Positions 435-58,695 of a stretch of DNA of 64,000 nt are shown here, one piece after another (position 1 is the stretch's first letter; each line of letters starts with the position of its first letter). This DNA comes from Tubulanus polymorphus (lineage: Eukaryota > Nemertea > Palaeonemertea > Tubulaniformes > Tubulanidae). The notes beneath the pieces are model-generated. The model was not told the DNA's origin, did not search any database, and saw only the letters and a program-made list of their open reading frames with translations. A program made the position numbers and the translations under genes. The stretch spans positions 11,367,155 to 11,431,154 of the forward strand of contig NC_134033.1 of NCBI RefSeq assembly GCF_964204645.1. Direction: 5' to 3'.

Positions 435-3400
435 CTCCGTTAGATGGTAAATAATCAATCGAATAAGACCGGCATCGATGACCGCTTGCACCTGACTGAC
501 GTTACCAGCAGTTATATTACTCAAAAACCACACGGCTTCCTATAATAAACAAACAACAGTTTCTATCCGATGCATTTAATGGTGTTTGTTCAGGGAGGCG
601 CCACTTTACACCAATTAACAAATGCACTTGAGTTTTCCCTGATTTTTCCATGTTATAACACAAAATTCCGTAAGTAAATCTGAGGAATTTCTAGGTTTGG
701 AATGTACCAATTAATTCATTTTTTCATGAATCACGTATTGATTAACATGTGGTCAATAGCATTATCCAAATTCCCCAGGTTTTTCAGATCTTTTTGCTAA
801 ATTTATCAAATTCCCTGATTTTTTCTAGATTTTTCCGATTTCATCACAATCAAAAAGAAACCAAATCAAAATCAATACGGCTGCCTCCGCCTACGATCAG
901 AAATGTCCTCATGCAGTAGTATTAATTACCCTCGGACCCTCAAAAAATGAATAGAGCATCTTTACGACTGTTTAAACGTAACGTACCTTGTTGATTTTCT
1001 CTTTGCTATGACTAAGTAAAGCGTGGAAGTGCGCTAACGCGTTATTATTCAACACGACCTGCGTCTGTTCGTCCGTGCCTGTGACGATGTTACCCACTGC
1101 ACGTAACGCAGCCGTCTGCAACAATACAAACAATTCAAACCAATCAGTTTACAGCGTTCAATTCAATTTCATTCAACGACTTTCAAGGACTCTTTTCCCC
1201 GATTCAAGGACATTTTCGACTCCCACCTTCAGGACTTTTTTGAACGGTAAACGAAATTTCCAATTTACAAACAGATATTTGAAAAAGTTTTAAATAGTCT
1301 AAGTAAAGGATTGAATTCACGCTTTAAAGCTTCATCAGGCTTTAAAGCAGCTTGAACTGGAAGAAATTTAAAACGCAGCAAACGTACCTGAACTTTCACC
1401 TCTTGATGACTCAACAGAGGAACGAGAAAAACGACGATTTCCGAATCGATGACCTTTTGTATTTGATCGTTTCCGCCATCAGTTAAATAAGACAACGCCC
1501 AAACTGTATCTACCAAAATCTGTCAATTAGAAAACATCTCAATATTCATCGACATTCAACAGTAAACCGATATAGGCCTGTTATATAGTTCTCAGGTTAA
1601 ATCGCAATCTAGAGTTTGAATTAGTTCATTCGCAATGATTTAACTCTCTTTTCAAAGTCAAATCTGGAACTGGAGGCACAGTGGTTGCGACGATATTATA
1701 GAGAGAATCCCACACAAAGTTTCAACTATATTCAATCGTCATCTTCAGGAATACCGAATAGTACTACTGATGACTGATTTACACTAAGAGATATAGGCTA
1801 GGACCGGTTATAATTCCAATGTTCCTCTTCAGGGGCAGATTACTGTTACACATTGAAATATACAGGATGTGGACAGGGATTACGACATACTAAACCAACT
1901 CGGATTAAATATGGACACAATGATTATAATCAGTCTATATATAATCGCTAATTACTATGAACTTACACTAGTGTCTGAATGATGAATTAATCGCTTCAAC
2001 GCGGGAAGAATTTCGCTGATAGTTTGCATCGGCGGCGGCGGATCTTTGTTACGACACAAGTTAACGATCACCCACGTGACGTTGCGCAGGAACGATATCG
2101 GTATGTCAGCGTCGATGAAGCGCAACAACGGATCGACCGCGTTGTGTTGTATGACGTAGTCACGTAAACACGGCCCGTCGCCGATGATGTTACCGAGTGC
2201 CCATACGGCCTGTTCGCACACGTTCTGATGCGGCGACGTCAGTAGATGCAAGAACAGCGGCACCGCGTTCGCCGATACGACCGCGTTCGTCTGCTCCGAT
2301 GTTCCCGACGCGATGTTCGTCAACGCCCACGCCGCCTCAAATTGCAACGACGGTCTGAAAAATTGTACGTTATCAAAATTATTTTTCAATGAATTTTATT
2401 CGCGGGTGGACACTTTTTATTTGCGTTGCTCTTTTCCCTGACTCGATCTGCTAAGAATCCAATCCATTAACGCAGTCAACTACATAAAAATATATTTTGC
2501 TATAAGTACAGCGTAAACTTAATTCATTCCCTCAACTCACTGAGTGCCACACAGGAGGACCCAGTTTCACAAAAAGGTTTAACTCATAAATCGATTTAAT
2601 TTCTTCATTAATTCAGTTAATCTTAAGTCGATCTAGGCCTTAATCCTTTTTGTGAAACCGGGCCCAGGGGGGCATTATTAGGGGGTTCAATGTTTCTTTT
2701 TGCCAGAATGGAGAGACCAGAGAAAAACCTTCGACCAAGAAACTACGTCACCACCCGGGTTTGAACCCATTAACCCTGGATTGACGAGACCAGTGACCGG
2801 CAGCTTAAACCACTCGCCAACTACCCCATTCATTCATTGAATTCAAATCAGAGCCTTTTAAAGGCTCTGATCCTGAAATTCCATGAGTTTTCCAGGAAAA
2901 GCCCTTAAAAACCCTGAATTTCCAGGCATTCAAGGTCCTGGATTAGGAATTGATTTTGCTCAAATTCCAGGAATTCCAGGAGGTGTATGAAACTGCTTTA
3001 TAAAACCTAGGGCTCAATCATTCAATTCAAACGCTGGAAATCGATATAAAACGAATAAATCTCTACTTACTGGTCATCTCTTCGCAAACACTGAACTAAA
3101 ATCGGTAAAATTCCTGAACCAATTAGATTATCAATCGGTGGATTCCTTTCACTGGATAACAATTTCCTGAATGAAAGACAAAAATAAGAATTAACGTAAC
3201 AATCAATGAGGACACTTTCAATTCCATTTTCGGATTTGCTAAAGCGAAAAAACTATGATTTCCAGAGCTTTTCAAAGGCCCGGATAAAATTCCCATTTTC
3301 TGTTAGTGCCTGCTTTCATTGCGCAATGGCCACAATGAACCATCAGTACTAATCACTTCTACGGTTATAAATCTTGCACGTCGATACCTGGCAGCCTGGA

Positions 3401-4539
3401 CAGCGTTCAATTGTTTTTCTTTATCGGCGCTAGCGGCGTTTTCCACGATCGATTCTAATGACTGGTTGACCGGTTTCTCGTTGTCCTCGGAGTCAGTGCT
3501 GTCGATCGTCGGCACGTTACGTCGCTTCAGAAGATGTTCCTCTCTTTTACTCTAAAGGTACATAAGAAATCACAAATCGAAAATGATGGGCTAACACGTG
3601 ACACCATTTAACAAATTCCCAGACTTTCCACTGATATTTATACAATTATATAACAGGACCCAGTTCCACAGTCCTGAGTCAAATCTTAACTCACAACTGT
3701 GTAACTGGGTCCTGTGGGTTCAGTTGCTCAAAAGTTGGTTACAGATAACACGTGGATAAATGCCGTGGATAAATTCCAATTGTCACTATGTCAACTATCC
3801 GCTGGTTAACTCTAACCAACTTTTGACCAACTGGCTCCAGGTGACAGATAAATAGATGAACACTAAAACTATCTCTCACTCACCTTCCGAAGTTCCACCG
3901 ACACCTCATTTCTGCGTCTCCTCATCTCCTGAAATAAACCAGAAGAAAACAATCATATAACACGTATAGCAGGCTGGAGACTAGGGTAATGTTTTACTGT
4001 TCTTCTTACAATGTAGCAGCAATTTAAACATTGGTTATGATTGATAGACATTTTTGACAAAATTTGTTTTAAATTCCCTGATATATTCTAGATATTCCCG
4101 ATTCCTTGATTTTCCAAGGTCAGTTAAACCCCACTTCTATCTAGATTTCATCAGATTTTTAGATTGAGGAAATTTTGGAGAATTTGAATTGAATTTATTT
4201 CATCCGCATTTAATTGAATGAAAAATAGAGTTAACATCTTGGTAATTTAGGAAAAAAAACTGACCAGCCCCAGCCAACCAACAACTACATCATGCTTCAT
4301 TACATGTGAAACTGACTCATGGCTGGACGTCATTCTGAATCAGTTGGTTAGTTTAGTTAGGCCTAGACAGACAGACAGAGACAGTCGGTGTCAGTCAGTC
4401 ACAACAACACAGTGTCAGTGCGATTTCTAACTTTTTCTCCGATGTCTTTTAGACCAACCTCTAGATCTCTGCCTTGATTTTTGTAGAGTTGGGATCTACC
4501 CTTCATGATATTCTCAGCGGTTGTCGTGTCGTCCATCAT
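435..4539 (-). CDS. KPNA4: Importin subunit alpha, KPNA3/KPNA4 type (5' part, 8 exons; 3' end outside window)
   Basis: This is the nuclear-import adaptor that binds classical nuclear localisation signals through armadillo (ARM) repeats and binds importin beta through an N-terminal IBB domain. Coding exons on the minus strand are 4459-4539, 3884-3928, 3388-3551, 3071-3166, 1967-2354, 1388-1519, 987-1115 and 435-539. All have AG/GT borders, and the frame stays open for 380 codons. Residues 13-60 form the basic IBB ([40 protein letters not shown]). ARM repeats follow with the family signatures [49 protein letters not shown] and [13 protein letters not shown]. The human family is about 520 residues, so roughly the last quarter lies left of the window. 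The start is the first of two adjacent ATGs at 4534-4539. The family call is firm; KPNA3 versus KPNA4 cannot be separated because invertebrates usually have one gene for both. Confidence 0.95.
2557..2665. mobile_element. Foldback/MITE-like element (TTTCACAAAAAGG arms)
   Basis: The left end, GGACCCAGTTTCACAAAAAGG after its first base, is mirrored on the right by CCTTTTTGTGAAACCGGGCC. The element sits in an importin alpha intron. A relative with the same termini lies at 27651-27787. It is non-coding. Confidence 0.65.
2690..2828 (-). mobile_element. tRNA-derived SINE fragment (tRNA-Leu/Ser-like head)
   Basis: On the minus strand an A-box-like stretch (GGCGAGTGGTTTAAG, as in tRNA-Leu/Ser) is followed about 40 nt later by a B box (GGGTTCAAACCC). 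A tail containing CTTGGTCGAAGG follows. The same tail motif recurs at 63365-63420 in a TTC14 intron, which supports a dispersed family. Confidence 0.6.
3654..3714. mobile_element. Short palindromic MITE (CAGGACCCAGTTCCACAG termini)
   Basis: The element starts CAGGACCCAGTTCCACAGT and ends ACTGTGTAACTGGGTCCTG, which is the reverse complement with few differences. It is one of at least four relatives in this window (12850-12966, 28833-28935, 31201-31316) and lies in an importin alpha intron. Confidence 0.7.
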
Positions 4540-9419: not shown

Positions 9420-10970
9420 TTTTGTCATCTGTTCTCTTTTTCAAACCGTGAAAAAATATCTGAAATAAAATCTTTTGTACGAGTTTATGATCCTCCAGAA
9501 ATACAGAGCAAGAAATCCCAGAACCTTAGGGCTAAAAGCCATCATCAGGTGTTCTGAAAACACATGTTATGAAATCTTGGATTCATTCAACAATGAGGTA
9601 TTCACAGAATTGTTGATAGTAGAAAGATAATTGTACGTAGGTATATATTCTCAAAATTCAGATCTTATTGTTTATTTTGTAAAAAGAGATTGTATTTCGA
9701 ATTGAACTTTTTCCCACCTAGTTAAGGGGATTGATAGGTTTTCGAATGGACATTTTTCTGTAGATCAATCATATGTTTTAGACAATGTTTCCTGCATGAC
9801 GACTTAACCAACTGGAATGTGTTGACTACTCGTAATATCTGTCTCTACGCTGTCTGAGAATTTATAAATATGATATCTTGTATGTTCGTATATATGCTTT
9901 GCTTAAGACGTAATATAGCTGGCAATTTTTTGGTTGGTAAAAATGACGAATACATTTTTTGGTCGCGAGACATTTGTTAGTGTGTCGAGGTTTTATTGTA
10001 TTATACATGTAGGTTTATATCTCATTTGATGCTTCAAATTCTCTAAATAATTCAACTCATATTATAGCGGCCTAGTCGCGTTATTGTTTGCCTAAACATC
10101 TGAACTGACAGATAATTGAGTGCTAAAAAATGTAAATACAGTTGTTTAAACAGCCATCAGTTTTACGCTTGTTTGCGATGATGTCTGTCGACCCTGTACC
10201 AGTACTAAGTGATCTGTTTTGGAAGATGTGTTGGGAAAAGATCATTTATGACGAGGCTTAAAAGGGCTCGGTCTGGTCGTTACGCAATTGTAGGATGTTA
10301 ATTGCCAATACGACCAAAGTCATTTGTCTGAAATGAAATTTGCCGCTAAGAATGGTGCGTTCTCTGCGGGTCGGACAAATATCCGTCATGAACAGTCATT
10401 TTTTTTAGAAATGTTTAAGATAGGCTTCGATTAATGCTGCTAACCTTGTAAAATCCTGAAAGCTCTCAGAAGAACACAGTAAAACCCTTTCGTGAACACC
10501 TCCCAATCTTGAACACCTCTTTACAGTGAATAGTGAAAACTTTTTCTGAAGGTACAGAAGGTTCATTTTACCTCCCTATGGTGAACAGTGGTTTTGTGCC
10601 GCCCATTCAAATCGCTGATTCTGTTCAGGTATTGTTTTGATACTAATCATCGTACATTAAGGTCTAGTGTGTCTGAGTCTAGCAAGGGGCTGGAAGTGCT
10701 GTGTCATGAAGGATAGTGTTTTATCATTTTGCCAACAGATGGAGCCACGGAACAGATGGAAAACCTTTTGAATTTCCACGTTCATTTGCAAACATATATG
10801 CAAATCCTAATCTGAGATTTCTACCTTTTTCATACTTTGCATAGATTATGTTAGTGTACGTAGGTCAATATTATAGTAATAAAACGATATTTATCAAGAA
10901 AAAAGGTTGATCTGAAATTATTCCCGTGGCATGTTAAAAGCGCTGGTTTCATATTCGTTGGTATTAGAAT
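9420..10970. other. Gene-free stretch
   Basis: I find no exon, RNA gene or clear element here. A possible MITE relic (CAGTAAAACCC...GTGAACAC...GTGAACAGTGG) lies around 10479-10600. Confidence 0.4.
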
Positions 10971-10977
10971 ATGGAAG

Positions 10978-11012
10978 TTCCAATTGGTCTATTGGTTAGA
11001 CCGTATGAGGCA
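10978..11012 (+). mobile_element. tRNA-like A-box head of a SINE
   Basis: TGGTCTATTGGTTAGACC is the A-box part of a tRNA-derived promoter. It matches the intact-looking SINE at 40450-40540, which has CTGGTCTATTGGTTAG. Its own B box is the first unit of the adjoining minisatellite. Confidence 0.6.
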
Positions 11013-11598
11013 CGGGTTCTATCCCAGTGTGTCCACTGTCCCAGGTTGATCCAAGGTTGTTCACTGTCCCAGGTTTGATCCCAGCGTGTCCACTGTCCCG
11101 GGTTTGATCCCAGTGTGTCCACTGTCCCGGGTTCGATCCCAGCGTGTCCACTGTCCCAGGTTCGATCCCAGGGTGTTCACTGTCCCAGGTTCGATCCCAG
11201 CGTGTCCACTGTCCCGGGTTCGATCCCAGGGTGTTCACTGTCCCGGGTTCGATCCCAGTGTGTTCACTGTCCCGGGTTCGATCCCAGCGTGTCCACTGTC
11301 CCGGGTTTGATCCCAGCGTGTCCACTGTCCCGGGTTCGATCCCAGCGTGTCCACTGTCCCGGGTTCGATCCCAGCGTGTCTGTCCACTGTCCCGGGTTCG
11401 ATCCCAGGGTGTTCACTGTCCCGGGTTCGATCCCAGCGTGTCCACTGTCCCGGGTTCGATCCCAGCGTGTCCACTGTCCCGGGTTCGATCCCAGCGTGTA
11501 CACTGTCCCGGGTTCGATCCCAGCGTGTCCACTGTCCCGGGTTCTATCCCAGCGTGTCCTCTGTCCCGGGTTCGATCCCAGCGTGTTCACTGTCACTT
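11012..11598 (+). repeat. 29-bp minisatellite, 20 units, each with a Pol III B box
   Basis: The unit is GGGTTCGATCCCAGCG followed by TGTCCACTGTCCC. I count 20 units; most have exactly GGTTCGATCCC, which fits the tRNA B-box consensus GWTCRANNC. One unit carries a 4-bp insertion (TGTC) at about 11380. The array ends in ...CACTGTCACTTCTCTTC, matching the tail of the SINE at 40450-40540 (CACTGTCACTCACTC). Because 29 is not a multiple of 3 and the unit has few stops, long open frames exist in several frames of both strands; these are artefacts, not genes. Confidence 0.95.
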
Positions 11599-12797
11599 CT
11601 CTTCAATCACTATATCATCATTAGCTCAGGCATTTGCTTCGATTCAGTCATGTTTTAATTCAAATCTAGAAAACACCGAAAGTCATTTTAATGTCGAACA
11701 TCGAGAAATGTTTACGTGAATTAAAACTATACTGCGGACCGCTCGGTGCTGGAGTCCGATTTTATTTTTATCTGAAGTAGAAAGATAATATAAAGCTCGA
11801 ACTATTCCGTTATCAGATAGGCATATTTACTACGTTACTATCTACATTGGCTGGATAAAGGTTATACGTGCATTTTAAAAAAGCGGTTCGAATTTGCCCT
11901 GCGCTTGTACTCGCCATAAACCGCTTAAAAAGGTTAGATGGAATCTTGTGATATGCTCGCTGATTAGACCCATAGAATGCTGGGACAACTCCCTGGTTAT
12001 AATACAATACTAGCAGAAACCCGTTATGTGATGAATCGTGGCTATATCCACGCTTGCCAGGGTTTGATTGCCGCCCGCTGAAGCTGATCCTTGCTGATTA
12101 GGCCCGTAGAGTGCTTTGGAGGTATTTGGACAACTCTAGATTAATACAATATGAATATCATAACATTCGGGAAGGACCAAGTTCCGCTGTTTTGAGCTAT
12201 ATTCCAATCTAGAGTTAAAGCATCGGAAAATTAACCCATCTTGATACAGAAATGTGTACCGGGTTGTTTTTTCGTGTATTTTACTGTGCCCGTTACAAAA
12301 ACAAAGATACAATTATAAGTACATCGACCATGTACTATTGTATACGACAATTGTATATTTTTATTTTCGAACTTCCGGGAAAAAACGTTCCTCAATGATG
12401 AGGAAATGCCCGCATTATGATTTTGCTATGAAGTTTTTCAACTCATTTTTTCTGTGGTGTGGTGTCTATTTCAAATTGTCGAATCAGCAAACAATCGACA
12501 ACCTTACTATAGAATTCCAATCTGCCTTTCTGAGTTGTGAATTAGTCAATCTTAAGTCCAACATCTGCCCCAACACCCCCTCCCCCTCCCGACTATTCAT
12601 CATGCGTTTATCTTATCAATCTCAATGTTAAACATTTTATTTACTTGCCCGATTTTTACTAGTGATATCGCATATATCCCAGTGTGATAGTCAGGTTAAC
12701 CTGGTAGAATAATAAAACAGCGTTCAACATGCTGATTAGGTTTTTTTCTCGTAACTAGGTACCTAGCTATATTACTACGTACAAGCCGCTCTCAGTG

Positions 12798-14251: not shown

Positions 14252-26820
<12,569 letters not shown>

Positions 26821-34353: not shown

Positions 34354-35229
34354 GTGGTGAACATGGAATTCATCTCATCATCCCTGGTAATGAGTTTGAT
34401 CAGAAAAATATTGAGAAAATCAGTGTCGTTACATCGAGAAAAACAGGAATTCGTGGGCACAGATGTTCACCGAAACTCGACACAAAATAAAAGTACATTT
34501 TATCTTGCAAAACGAATATTGACTCCATTTCGTTCAATCTCATTCACAATTTTAATCAGTGTAAAAATTGTTATTATACATTTGATGCAATTATTCGGAA
34601 TGATGATTCTCAGGAAATACCTGACGCTTAGGACGAATATCTTAGTGAAAATAAATCCGTCCTCAAATCAATTAATCCAACAAATACTGGGACATTTTAA
34701 CAAGATATTCAAAATATCACCACATATCGTACAACCCACATACCATCCCGGTACAACCCACATACCATCCCGGTACAACCCACATACCATCCCGGTACAA
34801 CCCAAATACCATCCCGGTACAACCCACATACCATCCCGGTACAACCCACATACCATCCCGTCCAACCCACATACCATACCCGTACAACCCACATACCATA
34901 CCCGTACAACCCACATACCATACCCGTACAACCCACATACCATACCCGTACAACCCACATACCATACCCGTTCAACCCACATACCATACCCGTACAACCC
35001 ACATACCATCCCCGTACAACCCACATACCATACCCGTACAACCCACATACCATACCCGTACAACCCACATACCATCCCCGTACAACCCACATACCATCCC
35101 CGTACAACCCACATACGATCGGTGCAAAATTCTGTTCGTTTCTCTTCCTATTTCAATAAACGATTCAGAAAACACGCCGATTCCATTAAAGGTCGAATAT
35201 TGATCGATGCAAATACAACATTAAACTGA
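34354..35229 (+). other. Open frame of 291 codons, doubtful gene, half of it minisatellite
   Basis: The frame runs from ATG to TGA, but residues about 127-255 are translation of the 22-bp minisatellite. The preceding 125 residues match no family I know. An 86-codon frame (35229-35489) follows with its ATG overlapping the stop. I consider both unlikely to be genes; they are listed because the non-repeat parts are open. Confidence 0.15.
34729..35117. repeat. 22-bp minisatellite, about 18 copies
   Basis: The unit is ACAACCCACATACCATCCCGGT. The left third has CATCCCGGT, the right part CATACCCGT or CATCCCCGT, so two variant blocks are visible. Confidence 0.95.
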
Positions 35230-35501
35230 TGGCGCACGATTCGTCTCGTTATCCATCTGTCTATCGCACCGAATCTGGCAAGCGAGGATGCATTTACTGC
35301 AGATTAGAGCAAACAACATCGTTGAAGCTTTTATTGACAGACGTCACGTGCGCGTCTTGCCCCTTCGAAACTACGTCGTTCAGATTATTGAACGATGACT
35401 CTATCGGTATGCAAGCTAACCGAGGAAACCTTCACTTGCAAACCATCGCACGCGTCTTCTCGTCTGGCTTTTGTCGTATCGCTGATTAAAGCGGCAAAAA
35501 T

Positions 35502-35828
35502 TGGGGCATCAGCAGTTTGGAACCTCAACAGCTTGGAACATCAGCGGCTTGGAACAACAGCGGCTTGGAGCATCAGCGGCTCGGAGCATCAGCGGCTCGT
35601 GGCATCAGCAGCTCGGAGCATCAGCGGCTCGGAGCATCAGCGGCTCGGTGCATCAGCGGCTTGGACATCAGCGGCTCGGAGCATCAGCGGCTTGGAACAA
35701 CAGCGGCTTGGAGCATCAGCGGCTTGGAGCATCAGCGGCTTGGAACAACAGCGGCTTGGAGCATCAGCGGCTTGGAGCATCAGCGGCTTGGTGCATCAGC
35801 GGCTTGGAGCACCAGCGGTCCGGAACAC
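35502..35828. repeat. 16-bp minisatellite, about 20 copies
   Basis: The unit is GGAGCATCAGCGGCTT, with variants ending CTC or reading GGAACAACAGCGGCTT. The right edge (GCACCAGCGGTCCGGAACAC, then TTGCGCATCACCG) resembles 38254-38286 in the DUF229 coding exon at about 82% over 33 bp. The open frames through it are artefacts. Confidence 0.95.
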
Positions 35829-37834: not shown

Positions 37835-39850
37835 TTACTCGGCACCGACCAACAACTTACTCCACTTTTTGGTACTATTTTTCTTACAATAACAATACGG
37901 TCGTAGATGCGGATATTGTTTCATCACGCAAGCCGGGGCATCGCCGTATTTGTTCGTCCGACTAATCTCGCGTGGATTCACCGAATATTTGCCAGTTTTT
38001 ATCGAGTATTTAATCGTCGCTTCGAAATGGCCGCCTCCCGGTGTCGTATGCAACGTTACCTGATACAAAATGGCGTCGTTTTTCGTGTTGTCCGATAAAT
38101 CGGCGACGCGTCCATCGGTATCGGCGCTCTTTTTGAATTTCAATACTTGTTCGTTCGGGGAATACATCACGCTGCGCACGATTTCGGCCACTCGTAATTC
38201 CTCGCACTGGCCTCTGAAAGATGACGTCATGGAATTTATAACGCTGACTAGTGCATCAGCGGCTCGGAGCACTTGCGGATCACGGGGCTGAACCGTCTTC
38301 CAATTCAGACACGAACACCAATGCGGCTCTATATCCGCCAGTTTACAAGTTCTATTTCTAGGTATCTCTTGTAATAAACTAATACCGCGTTGAGTGACGT
38401 CACCGAGTTTCTTATTTTGAAAATGTATCAAATCGTGAAACGTAGCATGAATGTCGAACGGTGTCGTTAAACGATACGCATTATTGCGCAGATTATTGAC
38501 GGCGTGTGGATACCTCTCCGAGAACCACGGTGGCGGTCGTATTGAAAAAAACGGATTTCGCTCCTCGTGTTTTCCCTGCACGAATTCGCGAATTCCGCTG
38601 AAACGAGCGCCGTGATCGCTCATCACAACCAGGAACGTGTTGTTGAGAAATCCGCGTTCGTTCATATTTTTCAACCAATCGCGCATATCTTCGTCGACGA
38701 TACTCAACGGGTTGTTGTTATCGTGCGAGCACTCCGAGTGGAAAGTGAAAGTGAATTTCGGTTTGTCTTTGTACAATTCGAACGCGTCGGTGACGTATTT
38801 CATCATCAGTTTGTGCCTCGGTTCCGAACCGAGACAATATTCCTTGTTACGCTTAAAATACTTATCCATTGATAGGTAAAACGGACGCATGAAATGATCG
38901 ACCGGAGCCTTCCTAAACCCTAACATACGATAGTTAAACGTCCCCAGATAAGGCATATCTTCGCCCCATAAAGTAACGTAACCGATATCGCTGAGATCTT
39001 TCCAGATCCACGGATGCCCGTCGACCGGCTTGGCGCCCGAATGTCCTCGTCTGGCTTCGGGTAATTCCGGCTCGGTTTTACCGGTAAGGATCGGTAACAG
39101 AGCTTGCGGCGTTCCGTCACCGACGATGTTATAACCTTCCAAAACCACTGCGCCTAATTGATTCTTTAAATAGTCGAATGTTAACGGCAGTTTCCGCATC
39201 CACGTCATACGCGAAACCGAATCGAAACCGAACATCAATATATCCATGCCGAGCGAATCGGCCGGAAGTGGTTTAGTTTCGTGTCGTCGGACAAGTTCCG
39301 GTTTCTCGGCGATTCCGATATGTAAATTGTCGTATTTGCTGCCGTCGGTCGCGAAACAGCTCGTTTTGAAGAAATCTTCGGTTATTTTCGTACCGTTTTG
39401 AATCGCTCGGATTCTGCGACCGTCCTTTATCGTGTAATCGTCGGATTGGCGAAATAAAGGCACGTAATCGCAGGTCACGTGACCGTGTTTCAAAACGGCC
39501 GATCGGGCGATCATGAAAGAACCGTTATTCACGTAAACCCAATCTTTCTCCTGGTTACAAGTCACTTTCGGCACTTTATAGAAATACTTGGCCAGTTCGG
39601 GCGGGTTCAACTCGACCGCTGGATGTACGCAGGCTAGGCCGCTCTGTTGTTTCAAATGATCGTCGGTCGCGTCGTTATTTTTCAGGGAATCTCGCAAAAT
39701 CACGTCGTCGATCACCATCGGACGAGAGTTGGAGCGCGAAAGATCCTTCGAGTGCGCGAAAAGGAAGTAAGCGCATGTCATCGCTACAGCGCCTAGGAAC
39801 AGCGCGACCACTCGCCTCCGTGAACGGCGTATTCCGCGTAGACAAAACAT
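37835..39850 (-). CDS. DUF229 family type II membrane protein (alkaline-phosphatase/sulfatase-like fold)
   Basis: The 671-residue frame is intact. Residues 1-13 are basic, 14-32 form a single membrane helix (VVALFLGAVAMTCAYFLF), and the rest should face the secretory lumen or outside. The DUF229 hallmarks are visible: MDILMFGFDSVSRMTWMRKL at 202-221 (D210 and S211 at the position of the metal/nucleophile site in the superfamily), EGYNIVGDGTPQA near 244, TLWGEDMPYLGTF near 299, FTFHSECSHDN near 372 and VVMSDHGARF at 408-417 (D412, H413 as metal ligands). Potential N-glycosylation sites are at 109, 152 and 403. Catalytic activity is inferred from the fold; the substrate is unknown. A longer frame to 39904 is open, but a good splice acceptor (TTTTCAG) ends at 39876, so the ATG at 39850 is chosen and a 5' non-coding exon is expected at higher coordinates. 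Confidence 0.9.
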   Translation of the reverse strand: MFCLRGIRRSRRRVVALFLGAVAMTCAYFLFAHSKDLSRSNSRPMVIDDVILRDSLKNNDATDDHLKQQSGLACVHPAVELNPPELAKYFYKVPKVTCNQEKDWVYVNNGSFMIARSAVLKHGHVTCDYVPLFRQSDDYTIKDGRRIRAIQNGTKITEDFFKTSCFATDGSKYDNLHIGIAEKPELVRRHETKPLPADSLGMDILMFGFDSVSRMTWMRKLPLTFDYLKNQLGAVVLEGYNIVGDGTPQALLPILTGKTEPELPEARRGHSGAKPVDGHPWIWKDLSDIGYVTLWGEDMPYLGTFNYRMLGFRKAPVDHFMRPFYLSMDKYFKRNKEYCLGSEPRHKLMMKYVTDAFELYKDKPKFTFTFHSECSHDNNNPLSIVDEDMRDWLKNMNERGFLNNTFLVVMSDHGARFSGIREFVQGKHEERNPFFSIRPPPWFSERYPHAVNNLRNNAYRLTTPFDIHATFHDLIHFQNKKLGDVTQRGISLLQEIPRNRTCKLADIEPHWCSCLNWKTVQPRDPQVLRAADALVSVINSMTSSFRGQCEELRVAEIVRSVMYSPNEQVLKFKKSADTDGRVADLSDNTKNDAILYQVTLHTTPGGGHFEATIKYSIKTGKYSVNPREISRTNKYGDAPACVMKQYPHLRPYCYCKKNSTKKWSKLLVGAE

Positions 39851-40449
39851 CGCTCCACACGCGCAGCAGTCCGATCTGAAAATAGAGAAAATATCAAAGA
39901 TCACCGTTATATTCTTAAATAATACGCTTTATATGTATAGAGCCTAATGGCGATCGTGTAAACTTTTGTCGTAATGTCCTGATCCGTAATTTCCTGTGAC
40001 TTGCGACTCTGAATTTTGTGATCGCGATGAAGTTTTGCGCGTTCCAGATGAATTCTTCTGGCTTTGTGCAAAATCAAAGTAATAAAGTGAACCGTAACAG
40101 CAGCCACATTCTGTCGCACGTGCCAGATGAGGCACTGCGCGATGCCGGTGGAAAATCCAATTTATTCAGCAAGGAAATATGGCATTATGTACTATTCAGA
40201 TGTTGCAAGAATTAATTGAAGTGGTCAATGTATTTATGAAATACCAATTTAACCAATATACATCTGTCTATTTACACATTGTGTATGAAATGGATTTCAA
40301 TTCAGGAAAGTAGTCACAACGAACTATCTACAGCACCGGGAAGTCCGGGATTACTTCGGAGTAGTCGAAATACTGAAAACATGTCTTCATTCCCAGATTC
40401 CCCTCTAATGCAGTACCGCAAGCTGTATGACCACTGACCAGGTAGATAA

Positions 40450-40540
40450 GTTCTACTGGTCTATTGGTTAGTCGCTTACTTTCTACGTGCTAGACCCGGG
40501 TTCGAACCCGGTGTGTGCCGTAATTTCACTGTCACTCACT
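40450..40540 (+). mobile_element. tRNA-derived SINE head, A and B boxes intact
   Basis: CTGGTCTATTGGTTAGTCGC (A box) and GGGTTCGAACCC (B box) are spaced as in a tRNA. The following GTGTGTGCCG...CACTGTCACTCACTC is shared with the ends of the 11.0-11.6 kb array. Confidence 0.7.
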
Positions 40541-40797
40541 CTTAATGGTGACATCGTCTACAGCCGGACACAGAGGAAACGCTGGTATTATTTTGTCTCG
40601 TGTTTCTCTGTGTCCTGTGCGTTGGGCTAATTATACCCACAGCCAAATTGTCATCATATTGAGCTTTAAGCATTGCGTTCCAATTTTTACTAATGATAAC
40701 AAATTATTTGTGCTCCATGTCTATCGAACAAATCACCGACATTTCTATCCATCATACAAATACAAATCTCAGCCTTAAGTTAACCTTTTGTTATTGT

Positions 40798-40944
<147 letters not shown>

Positions 40945-53800: not shown

Positions 53801-54223
53801 TCACACCACTTGTATATCTCGTGTATTAATGTCGCGTATGTCTAATTGAACGTCCATTTTTGGTGTGGCCGTCAAGGACCGAAACGATAGCGCTTGTATC
53901 CAGGAAACGGGTATTTGTCGTGGGAGCTCCATTTCTAGATCCGATTCCACGTGAACGACGCGTAGACTTCCCCAGTTACAATCGATCTTCGGACGTGGGC
54001 AATAGACGACATTACTTATTTCGATTGGCGCAGTTTCTCCGACTAACTTATAACTATGGACACAACCAGGCAAGGTTTGTAATTTCACATGCACTTGTTG
54101 GTCCATATATGGTTTAAATAAAATGAAAAACAACGGAACTGTATATCGAAACAAAGAGCTAATGAATATATCGAGCCCGCGGATTGTGAGTAGCATTAAA
54201 TTGCCTGATGAGGTTGGGGTCAT
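53801..54223 (-). CDS. Open frame downstream of the integrase, possible third ORF of the retroelement
   Basis: The 140-codon frame overlaps the integrase frame by 65 bp in another phase and lies between pol and the 3' LTR. It has a hydrophobic stretch near residues 12-40 and later regular alternating beta-like sequence. I do not recognise it. It may be an additional element protein or chance. Confidence 0.3.
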   Translation of the reverse strand: MTPTSSGNLMLLTIRGLDIFISSLFRYTVPLFFILFKPYMDQQVHVKLQTLPGCVHSYKLVGETAPIEISNVVYCPRPKIDCNWGSLRVVHVESDLEMELPRQIPVSWIQALSFRSLTATPKMDVQLDIRDINTRDIQVV

Positions 54224-55922
54224 CGATGTTTTCTTCTGGTTCCCAACTATCTTCTGACGGAGGAAAGCCCAGCCAGCGAATCAGATAGTATGTTTTCTTG
54301 GCATAACTCCTTTTTGCTAGTATTTTCTCCACGAGAAACTGATCTGGTTCCAGTGTTGCAGGTTTAGGATGATCTTTTATCAGTCTTGACTCAGGCCCTA
54401 AAAATTTCTTTAATTTACTGGCATGCTCAGACGATGACAAGAGTTTACCGTCCAATGTTTGTAACTTATACGTAACGGGTTTTAAATTTCCGGCTGGAAT
54501 TTTATCATGTATAATGTACGGTCCCGTGTAGGGGTGCATTAACTTTTTAGATAGGCCGTTACGACTGATCTTAGGCTTATACAAATAAACTTTTTCGCCA
54601 ATTTCAAAACTGATATCACGTGATTTCTTGTCATACTGGGCTTTCATTTTATCCTGACTAGTAAGTTGGTTAGCAATGGCTTCTGTGTGGATTAATTGGA
54701 ATTTTTGTTGTAAGGTCTGTAAATATTCTTCATGGCTGTGCGCTACGAGTTTAGAAGCTGGGAGTAAGAGGGCCGAATCGATAGGTAGGACTGGTTTACG
54801 GCCATAGAGCATCTGGAACGGCGAAATTTTTGTAGACATACTGGGGCTAACTCGATAGGAAAATAAAGCTGCCGGTATAAATTTGTCCCAGTCGGTCTGA
54901 CGGACATTAGCCTGAAATGCTAGCCGAGTAACCAGTGTACCATTAAACTTTTCCACAAGACCATCACATTGGGGATGAAAACTGCTAGTATGGGTTTGAG
55001 ATGTACCCATTTGTTTACAAACAGATTTAACCACTTCAGATAGAAAATTGGTGCCTCGGTCAGAATGCAAAACTCGTGGACATCCATGCCTGCAAAGAAT
55101 CTCGTTAAATAGGAGATTTGCAACCTCTGGGGCTTCGATGGATTTCGTTGCGAAAGCTTCGGGCCAATGAGTTAGATAATCCATGAAAACGACGATATAC
55201 TTTTGACCTGATGTCGTCTCTGGAAGCGGACCGACACAATCAACCCCTAATCGGTCAAAAGGTCTTTCGGCGATGGGCATAGGGACGAGTGGTGGCTGCG
55301 TGGACCTAGTGGGAACCTTCTTGCTGTTGCACTCACTGCACGTTTCAATCCAATTGCATATATCCCGTGTCATTCCTAACCAGAAATATCGTTTTTGAAT
55401 GACACCCAAGGTTTTCTTGAAACAATAATGACCACCAATTGATGAATCGTGACATGCAGTGAGTACATCCGGAATAAGGGTCTCAGGAAGGTACAGTTGA
55501 ATAGCCTTTGGCTCCTTGGTCTTTTTGTGGTTCCACACATGATAGAGCAGCTTTCCATTGCCGACAAAATAATGGTCAGAATGGAGGGCGATATCTCGAG
55601 CCTCTTTCTCATCGATGGGGAGGGTTTTTGACTCGAGATACGATAACATTTTTCCCGCCCAATCATCCTTTTCTAGTTGTCTCCGAATATCCGTTACGTC
55701 GACATTCGGATCACAAATTGTACAGACCTCAGTGAAACTGCAATGATCAGAATCGGACAGTGCGTTACGACCCGGTTGTTTTAAGGAGACCTCGTTATAT
55801 AATGATATGGTGCAAACAGAGTTGAAAGGACAGCGTGAAAGGGTGTCTGCATTGTTGTGGATTTTTCCCTTGCGGTATGTGACCGTAAAGTCCAGATCCT
55901 GTAATTCCAGAGCCCAACGCCC
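54159..55922 (-). pseudogene. Truncated pol: RNase H C-terminus, integrase, chromodomain
   Basis: The frame is open from the deletion junction at about 55922 to the stop at 54159; the longest ATG-initiated part begins at 55649. In order: the RNase H tail (YRKGKIHNNADTLSRCP), the HHCC integrase zinc finger (HDSSIGGH...CNWIETCSEC), the rve core with the DDE residues (D in GVDCVGPL, D in VLHSDRGTNF, E in GLVEKFNGTL), an integrase C-terminal domain, and a chromodomain (EKILAKRSYAKKTYYLIRWLGF, split here as EKILAKRSYA and YYLIRWLGFPPSEDSWEP). The chromodomain places it with chromoviral Ty3/gypsy elements. No stop interrupts this part, so the copy looks recent, but it lacks reverse transcriptase and cannot act on its own. 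Confidence 0.9.
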
Positions 55923-55984
55923 GATACTAAGACTATAAGAAGCTTAACAAATATATAGTAAATACGGCTTATGCCTAACACGCT

Positions 55985-57340
55985 CAAGGTTTTCAAGAAC
56001 GGTTTTCAGCTCTAGGTTTTTTTCTGCTCCCGCGAGAAACCGCTCGAGAAAATCAGCTTAAAAATTGGCGCCGAGCAGGAAAACGTGAGAGGACAGGCAA
56101 ATAAAATGCCGTTGAAACATTTCTCAGGAGGAAATTGCTGAAAAATCAGCCTTAAAAGTGTTCACGTGTATCATTTCATCTGATATCAATGACCAAACGA
56201 TGACCTAAATGTTTATTCAAAATCGAACAATATGGTTGAAAATCGAAGGCGCGTGTTTCAAAGATTTCTAGGATAGATCTCCGAAGGATATGAAGAGTTA
56301 GCCAGAGCTCTCAAGGGAATGGGGACCATGTGTTCATAAATGTGAAGATCCAAGTTGATCCTCACGTGCGATGCATTTATTTAGCTCTTCATTAAACTAT
56401 TTTTGCATCTCTTTACATATATATCATTTTCACGCATTTTAATATATCGATATTTGTTAAGCAACAGCATAGTAGAACGACGTTTTGTGTTACTGGGATC
56501 GTAAACAGAATTAGAAATTGACAAAAAGGACTAGAAATTGATTAAAAAAAAGAATTAACATGTGTTTAAGTTGTATTTTCCAAAGCAATGATATTTTGTC
56601 TATTCTTGCATATACATTTACGTACACTCATAGAAAAATTAGACAAGACTGTGCGATTTATTATTCAGTTGGCCGAACAAACGTGTCAATGACCGTCACT
56701 TTCTATGTACGGGCACGTCCGGGTAGTCGATGACCAACCGATCAGTGTTATGTTTGTATAATGTAATACACACGTAACGGGACATCATCTGAAATAACTG
56801 CGCACGGAAATATAAATGCTATAGGTACGAATATCAAACAAAAACTAATTTATGATAATTTATTCGTCGATATAATGTGCACGATTTATTTGTCATCAGC
56901 TGTTCTACATAATTAATACAAAACATCCTACTATATTTTAGGCTAAAAAGATTGATAGGTTGTTTCTCATTTCTGCTGAGCTTAAAAATGTTGACCCGGC
57001 CGCCTATCTTCCATGTACCCTACTTAAAATCATCATCAAGCTAACAACAACAGACCCGGCAGCTATAGAAATGAACTGATTACTTATTGCAGTTTACAAA
57101 AGTGACCCAGCCAATTGGGAGAAACAAGGCATCATTTCTCTAGCCTTAAGATATATTTGTGGGTGTTGATGATTTCTGTTTAATTTCAAAAGTAAATGAC
57201 GATTTCATTAGTTTATATTTTCAAATTAAAAACTATTTAATCCTTGCGCGCACTGAGGACTTCTATTCCATTGGAAATACTGATAGAAAATTAAACGAAA
57301 ATATCATCAGGACGAGAATTTCTATTTCTTTTTAAGGTCT
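55985..57340. other. Gene-free stretch between the retroelement and the repeat-protein gene
   Basis: AT-rich sequence without recognised exons. The promoter of the 57360 gene should lie at its right end. Confidence 0.4.
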
Positions 57341-57359
57341 TTATATAGAAGCGCTGAAT

Positions 57360-58695
57360 ATGGACATATTAAAAATGAAACGTCGTATGCGGCGATCAAC
57401 GCAACAGAAAATAACACTATTCGTTGCCGCATTCATATTCGGGGTCGCTCTATATCTGATTGTTAAACGTAGTTGTCATAACAGCGACATAGGAGAACAA
57501 GTCGAAACGCAAGGTGCAAAAGTCTATGCGGCAAGATACGCGAAGGCCTTACCGTTGGCTTCGCATGAAGGTAACATTCCAAATCAGGCATCACTACGTC
57601 GGCGCAAGAAAAAACATATTCCGAAAGATAAAGAGCGCTTAATTGGTGACGCCAGACTTGCACGTTTCGGGGATAAAGATCATGAAAGCTACGCTGGGGA
57701 ATCAGAATCGTTTCAACTCGTGGAAATGTTGGAGGAAAAATTTCCTGAGGCACATAAAGACACCGATCGCGTAGTTCCGGGTGATTCAATAGCGAGAGAA
57801 CAGCCTCTCGAAGAGCAGAGCATCGATGCTGAACTATCAAAAGATCCTAGCGACAAAAAGGGAAAAGAACAGAGTCATAAAGAGCAAAGGGTCGGTGCTC
57901 AACTATCAAAAGATCCAAGCGACAAAAAGGGAAAAGAACAAAGTCATAAAGAGCAAAGCATCGATACTGAACTATCAAAACATCCTAGCGACAAAAAGGG
58001 AAAAGAACAGCCTCCCATAGAGCAAAGCATCGATGCTGAACTATCAAAAGATCCTAGCGACAAGGGGAAAGAACAGTCTCCCAAAGAGCAAAAGGTCGGT
58101 GCTCAATTATCGAAAAATTGGTAACAGTAAGGAAAAAGAAAAGTCCCCCAAAGAGCAACAGGTCGTCGGCGCTGAACTATCAAAAGATCATAGCGACGAA
58201 AAGGGAAAAGAACAGTCTCTCAAAGAGCAACAGGTCAGCGCTGAACTGTCAAACATTGATAACGACAAAAAGCAAACAGAACAGTCTCCCAAAGAGCAAA
58301 GGGTCGATGAGCTATCAAAGGATCTTAGCGATAAAAAGCTTCCAGACAAGATGTCAAATCGGGATATAGTACGTAAAGGACAGGTTCTTGACCAACGTCC
58401 AACTGAAGTATTACTGGATAAACGGGAAGTTATCGAGCAACCATTGAAAACAACGAAAAACATTACTGATCGTGGAATACTTACGAAAGAACGGACTATA
58501 AAAGAACCAGAAGATGCTAAGTTATCATTAAACAAACGGATAGAAAGTGAAGATACGCCTAGTAACATCCGTACTGTAGAAAGAGTCTCCGAACGACCAA
58601 TCGTCGAATTAAGTAAAAAGCAACCTATGAAACAAAAAATGACCGAACCCAAAATTCAGCAGATATATCCGCATATCTCAGACGAAAAACTGTAA
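57360..58695 (+). CDS. Single-pass membrane protein with 23-residue charged repeats, broken by a frameshift
   Basis: The N-terminal frame (57360-58124, 254 aa) has a basic start, a membrane helix at about residues 19-35 (ITLFVAAFIFGVALYLIV) and then a long hydrophilic region, so it is a predicted type II protein. From about 57810 a 69-bp unit repeats roughly eight times, encoding variants of EQSIDAELSKDPSDKKGK. At about 58110-58120 (ATCGAAAAATTGG) the repeat shifts to another frame, which stays open to 58695, ending ...HISDEKL. Repeats continue on both sides of the break, so the two frames were one reading frame. The break may be a real indel in this allele, a sequence error in the A run, or loss of function. 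I recognise no family; the repeats look lineage-specific and coiled-coil/disordered. Confidence 0.6.
57811..58350 (+). repeat. 69-bp coding tandem repeat, about 8 copies
   Basis: Typical pieces are GAGCAAAGCATCGATGCTGA, CTATCAAAAGATCCTAGCGA and CAAAAAGGGAAAAGAACAG. Units are diverged but stay in frame except at the break near 58115. Confidence 0.85.

Follow-up and report, generated by a model that had tools for sequence, protein, structure and literature searches.

Helenus elements (TRIMp3) have been described as TRIMs with a tRNA-like LTR, a primer-binding site and a polypurine tract, which are associated with 4-bp duplications in animals and are reported from six animal phyla (PMC10886601). 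Cassandra likewise carries a Pol III promoter in a TRIM LTR, but this promoter is of the 5S rRNA and not of the tRNA type, and the element belongs to plants and not to animals (PMC10886601). Tandem growth involving a B box is known from snakes, where B-box-containing tandem units derived from a tRNA SINE have already been published; in these squamate SINE-derived satellites, Squam3, what is repeated is the 3' portion of the tRNA-related head with its box B (PMC10702118). Mouse Ms6-hm in MaLR LTRs and the human Alu minisatellites are examples of a minisatellite grown within a dispersed element, although their parents have no tRNA-type LTR and B-box arrays are not described in the accessible text of the review that covers them (PMC6947457). 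Lastly, B boxes also occur in groups, and apart from any tRNA gene, at the fission-yeast IR boundary, which is supported by five of them (PMC4502379), and at extra-TFIIIC (ETC) sites (PMC4226948, PMC6950938).

The array considered here lies in a window of 64,000 nucleotides (the whole stretch of DNA analysed) on contig 9 of a source genome of 267.8 Mb and 77 contigs, which was searched as well. It is probably a minisatellite which arose by tandem growth within the decayed LTR of a Helenus-type TRIM, a short non-autonomous LTR retrotransposon with a tRNA-like Pol III promoter in its LTR, and it presumably serves no selected function. It thus differs from Squam3, which has a SINE parent, many loci and a 67-nt unit (PMC10702118), by its TRIM LTR parent, its single locus and its 29-bp unit. 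Compared with the published Helenus elements, the array copy is a fragment in which an interior segment has expanded in tandem; in the accessible text of PMC10886601, the words minisatellite and VNTR are absent and "tandem" occurs twice. At the IR boundary and the ETC sites, binding or boundary activity was measured, whereas the present array is known from sequence alone. A literature search for tandem B-box arrays or tandem growth in Helenus gave none for a TRIM among the matches listed, the snake SINE being the nearest.

Structure and Genomic Setting of the Array

Twenty head-to-tail units of about 29 bp occupy positions 11011-11593 (+ strand), as delimited by TRF, motif matching and segmentation. 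According to the segmentation, 18 units are exactly 29 bp long, one is 28 bp and one 33 bp; TRF reports the interval 11013-11594 with a period of 29, 20.0 copies and 91% matches. A perfect B box, GGTTCGATCCC, is present in 14 of the 20 units. The preliminary description of this DNA had counted 20 units of 29 bp, most of them with a perfect box, and both statements hold. The 14 canonical boxes all lie on the same strand within 450 bp (11130-11579, +), together with two damaged units, and the motif GGTTCGANYCC is matched 19 times in the window, where shuffled sequence gives 0.15 on average. In the whole genome, a pattern of the 29-bp unit allowing up to three mismatches matched 18 times, every time inside the array, which is also the most-boxed B-box array of the genome as far as a strict search for B-box pairs goes. 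Two of the three types of interior variant recur in several units, and units 1 and 2 rank among the most divergent of the array, a behaviour which is that of a minisatellite.

Exons recognized by their Pfam domains place the array between two divergent genes, importin alpha (IBB/Arm, 1955-3551, - strand) and an ACSL-type gene (AMP-binding, from 19174, + strand), which are the neighbours initially named for it. The window also contains an intronless-looking open frame of 697 codons with a DUF229 domain (37838-39928, -). Another open frame (54162-55943, -), with integrase zinc-binding, integrase core and chromo domains, represents a Ty3/gypsy-type element. Animal Helenus elements are thought to be mobilised by Gypsy elements.

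The Parent Family

With the related copy (40440-40640) as query, at least 42 matches were obtained, 40 of 96 candidates being scored. Alignment of 29 of the matched copies with the window copy provided the family consensus, a dispersed element of 153 bp with TG..CA ends (TGTTACG...CGTTACA), an A box, TGGTCTACTGG, and the B box GGTTCGATCCC. Patterns for the 3' and 5' ends matched 69 and 72 times, respectively, with 21 pairs, which amounts to at least 120 loci. The second copy in the window, without tandem expansion, extends over 40416-40552 (+) and matches profile positions 14-152 with 108.3 bits; a perfect (TA)70 tract is found a little downstream (40801-40941).

Target-site duplications were looked for among 62 profile hits, of which 32 lacked an end and 30 were two-ended, two of the latter being dropped because of shared flanks. 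Exact 4-bp duplications flank 11 of the 28 unique two-ended copies, whereas the control averaged 0.28 and never exceeded 4 over 20000 permutations, and flanking duplications of 5 and of 6 bp were observed at none of the 28. We read six of these 28 copies as LTRs of longer copies, or as lying beside internal sequence, so that a duplication around the single LTR is not expected there.

Copies with the LTR-internal-LTR organization are indeed present. The complete one (L015) consists of a 153-bp LTR, an internal part of 139 bp and a second LTR of 148 bp, 440 bp in all; its LTRs are identical at 135 of 145 aligned bases and the outer 4-mers are CAAA/CAAA. Three others (L096, L032 and L036) have one complete and one partial LTR each. 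One base past the 5' LTR, the internal sequence is TGGTGGAGAACCCG or a variant of it. The primer-binding site expected for tRNA-Ala, defined as the 14-mer complementary to its 3' end with CCA added, is matched at 13 positions in L010, L036 and L096, 12 in L015, 10 in L033 and 4 in L031. A tRNA-3'-end pattern has 38 matches, 25 of them a single sequence, and ARAGORN assigns tRNA-Ala at all three examined loci (anticodon AGC four times, TGC once). Ahead of the 3' LTR, a polypurine tract, AGAGGGGAGGG or near it, followed by CAG/CCG, is seen in the four copies inspected (L015, L096, L032 and L036). Another locus (L100), with two LTR copies in the same orientation about 2.45 kb apart, was considered as a longer element and rejected; no primer-binding site was seen after its first LTR.

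The TG..CA ends, 4-bp duplications, LTR-internal-LTR copies, primer-binding site and polypurine tract argue together that the family is not a SINE. The parent had initially been taken for one, which would imply a SINE moved by a LINE. Its tRNA-like A and B boxes and short dispersed copies are in keeping with such an origin, but the 4-bp duplications, with none of 5 or 6 bp, the precise ends, the copies with two LTRs and the fact that no A-rich or simple-repeat tail was seen in the aligned family copies already contradict it, and this view is now hardly tenable. A tRNA-derived SINE (SINE2) was rejected as parent, given the lack of long variable duplications and of a LINE-like or simple-repeat tail. 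ARAGORN found no tRNA in L010, L015, L096 or the window, and Rfam at gathering thresholds gave no match on the window.

The family would instead be a new Helenus-type TRIM family, placed by published features. It shares with Helenus the tRNA-like LTR, the 4-bp duplications, the primer-binding site, the polypurine tract, a total length of about 440 bp (L015) and the published GGTTC of the B box (PMC10886601). It differs by its box A, TGGTC, which is one base off the usual TRGCY, and by its tRNA-Ala primer, which section 3.6 of that paper does not list for animals (PMC10886601). As parent element, the SINE is thereby replaced by a tRNA-promoter TRIM. This class received its name only in 2024, and it would gain a tRNA-Ala-primed family from animals.

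Two further loci of the family deserve mention. At L028 (G000:C11:8822654-8825744, positions 1555-2208), the family LTR has been amplified as a 218-bp unit repeated 3.0 times, with an A and a B box in each unit. Over G000:C4:27172734-27296746, seven identical 3'-end matches of one LTR subfamily are found, five of them spaced 10-11 kb, which suggests a large tandem block carrying the LTR copy along.

Remnants of the Parent Element on Both Sides of the Array

On the left side, profile alignment and shuffle control delimit an LTR remnant at 10977-11010 (+), which matches the profile from position 48 and includes an A-box match, TGGTCTATTGG (TRGYNNANNNG), at 10985-10995 (+). The tRNA-like A-box head attributed to this side was thus correctly recognized. 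On the right side, a remnant of the LTR tail (11594-11605, +) follows the profile up to position 145, the LTR end itself being unrecognisable. With respect to the family, the array copy has lost 13 bp from the interval separating its A box from its B box, and about 10 bp more past the latter. The family profile detects the head (10981-11036) with 14.9 bits (E 5.4e-4) and the last unit with its tail (11563-11605) with 19.2 bits (E 2.5e-5), and the joined head, one unit and tail reach 37.3 bits (E 6.7e-11). It follows from these matches that the array did grow within an interspersed element.

Shuffle controls were performed by pairwise alignment against the family consensus. The head without B box (10940-11013) scored 40.0, a value reached by none of 2000 shuffles (maximum 38.0) and by 8 of 6273 other window segments. 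The tail that follows the last B box (11580-11680) scored 41.5, reached by none of 2000 shuffles (maximum 41.0) and by 21 of 6269 segments. Past the last CACTGT, the tail alone (11594-11680) was not significant, since 527 of 2000 shuffles and 1829 of 6271 segments scored as high. The right edge had been proposed to run into the tail of the element at 40450-40540. The last unit with its tail does match the family, whose copy at that place is slightly wider than stated, but what follows the array does not reach significance by itself.

Direct DNA searches with the left flank (10930-11045) and the right flank (11585-11760) matched only the array locus, which indicates that the array copy is too diverged for this kind of search. 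As the flanks are weak singly, its placement in the family relies on head, box and tail together. In the array's own copy, neither the LTR ends nor a target-site duplication could be recognized. The profile match covers positions 48-145 of 153, and the copy is for this reason filed as an LTR fragment, which would belong to the family by its interior alone. A subfamily ending TCTCAATCGTTATA/G (L093-L095), the tail of which resembles that of the array, was considered as a closer parent and rejected, with a total score of 83.5-88.0 against 100.5 for the main consensus. As in other element-derived minisatellites, the unit is homologous to the element and remains of the latter stand on both sides, the right one being weak without the last unit.

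Integrity of the B Boxes and Promoter Potential

The B box is damaged in six of the 20 units, by G to T in units 1 and 19, C to T in units 3, 4 and 11, and a one-base deletion in unit 2. The five substitutions fall at two positions only, C69 and G70 in human TFIIIC numbering, and the deletion takes C69 or its neighbour; C69 and G70 are bases contacted by human TFIIIC (PMC11811891). The first four units (11011-11125, +), nearest the A box, are all damaged at one of these two positions. Conservation was analysed in the 18 full-length units, the 28- and 33-bp units being omitted. Substitutions affect 5 of 198 sites in the box and 17 of 324 in the rest of the unit (Fisher p=0.18); of the 11 sites of the box 2 are variable, as are 5 of the 18 others (p=0.68). 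The substitution rate in the box is thus about half that of the rest, which is the direction that conservation would give, but the difference is not significant and the changes are few.

The canonical B box nearest to the A box is 134 bp away, to be compared with the 30-67 bp that separate the two boxes in human tRNA genes (PMC11811891). No intact B box is thus placed as in a tRNA-type Pol III promoter, and the array would no longer be one. The locus could still be imagined as a live Pol III transcription unit, in which a consensus A box is followed on the same strand by 14 canonical B boxes, ending at the first four-T run downstream (11653-11656, +), the nearest candidate Pol III stop. This is very improbable in view of the above spacing (PMC11811891) and of the damage to all four boxes closest to the A box.

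TFIIIC Binding and a Possible Boundary Role

Another proposal is that the array is a working ETC cluster, which would part or organise the importin-alpha and ACSL neighbourhoods through the recruitment of condensin or cohesin by bound TFIIIC. The density of canonical boxes fits this scheme. ETC sites in Drosophila and mammals occur with cohesin and condensin, and at domain borders (PMC4226948), and 44.6% of the extra-TFIIIC sites of C. elegans overlap repeats, nearly all of them CeRep3, which are suspected tRNA pseudogenes (PMC6950938). However, the six damaged boxes are hit at bases contacted by human TFIIIC, and B-box arrays are not in excess in the genome. In addition, 35 bp of DNA are resolved in the human tauB complex (PMC11811891), which exceeds the 29-bp unit, so that no more than about eight of the 14 boxes could be occupied at the same time. 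A working cluster of this kind appears quite unlikely. The same low probability is given to the combined scenario, in which B-box-only tandem growth would have turned the TRIM LTR into a B-only ETC cluster, with at most about eight simultaneous complexes, anchoring or insulating the interval between two divergent housekeeping genes.

At the level of the sequence, the balance is more against than for a maintained TFIIIC platform, the 134-bp distance from the A box and the lack of significant conservation of the B box pointing the same way, and a selected boundary role finds no support. Some TFIIIC could nevertheless bind passively at the array, since 14 canonical boxes are left and TFIIIC is known at dead tRNA-like repeats. 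Should TFIIIC be recruited by the number of B boxes alone, simple slippage could allow Pol III-type mobile elements to seed architectural sites. With its many B boxes and no usable A-box promoter, the array is a clean natural substrate for the question of TFIIIC recruitment by box number in an animal.

Origin of the Array

The array is most likely an ordinary copying accident and not a purpose-built control element. The repeated unit corresponds to the B box of the LTR fragment and about 18 bp downstream, with the tRNA-like head and tail flanking the array. This segment would first have been duplicated by replication slippage or unequal exchange; repeated duplication and homogenisation would then have led to about 20 copies, presumably without any selected function. 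The reading as a minisatellite in a decayed LTR fragment stems from the match of head and tail to the family and from the Helenus features of the latter. It is supported by the profile match of unit, head and tail, and by L028, where the same family is also tandemly amplified. The halved substitution rate in the box, the unrecognisable LTR ends and duplication, the non-significant tail taken alone and the top rank of the array in box number would count against it. The mechanism initially proposed, an expansion of the B-box segment within one SINE, holds in its main lines, since a tRNA-like interspersed element has indeed seen its B-box segment expand, but this element is a Helenus-type TRIM LTR.

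Other B-Box Arrays and Minisatellites

The strict B-box pair search over the genome gave 84 rows, and its reversed control pattern none, which shows only that B boxes are common in this genome. Eleven of these rows (for example G000:C1:15698716) correspond to a dispersed repeat (GGTTCGAATCCCGCAATGTCTCAACAGGG...), in which two B boxes occur 59 bp end to end. Tallied by hand from the same search, at least seven arrays contain three or more strict B boxes, with a spacing of 19-49 bp and differing unit sequences: that of the window and those at C5:24739498, C7:792827, C8:840946, C8:7904451, C11:2152373 and C12:4303438. The arrays with strict B boxes other than that of the window include some with unrelated units, of 40 bp repeated 8.9 times (L071), 43 bp repeated 7.7 times (L072), 46 bp repeated 5.4 times (L073), 27 bp repeated 9.1 times (L074) and 21 bp repeated 4.4 times (L075). 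In L072 (G000:C8:7902500-7907000), seven strict B boxes lie at positions 1939-2268, and the sequence 124 bp downstream is a diverged relative of the LTR family, with 31.6 bits; the L072 unit presumably resembles the 3' half of tRNA-Ser.

Minisatellites of five copies or more are common and ordinary in this genome, the window containing five and the other loci, 89.9 kb in total, as many. A rough expectation was derived from these 10 in 153.9 kb, a sample which includes the array itself and 29 loci chosen around family copies. It corresponds to about 17,400 minisatellites genome-wide, with a period of 19-49 in five of the 10 and units of about 33 bp. Taking the background density of seven B boxes in 141.6 kb, about 14 B-box arrays of period 19-49 are expected, against the seven observed with three or more strict boxes, figures which, because of the small samples, indicate an order of magnitude only. 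B boxes are thus apparently not favoured in tandem growth. Similar arrays, for which a genome search had been suggested, do exist (at least seven, counting that of the window); their units differ and their number shows no excess over the rough expectation.

These figures bear on a further mechanism, in which the TFIIIC/Pol III machinery bound at B boxes would stall replication forks and drive tandem growth, making B-box segments nurseries of minisatellites. The seven or more arrays, with their spacing of 19-49 bp and different units, and the presumed likeness of the L072 unit to the tRNA-Ser 3' half would be in line with it. The Squam3 satellites of snakes likewise repeat the box-B part (PMC10702118). 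With about 14 arrays roughly expected, the seven found represent no excess, however, and this mechanism is unlikely, if somewhat less so than the ETC cluster.

Besides the array, the window contains minisatellites at 24280-25129 (34-bp unit), 34728-35120 (22 bp), 35501-35818 (16 bp) and 57797-58338 (69 bp), the last of which overlaps an open frame with Lys/Glu-rich repeats (57336-58124).
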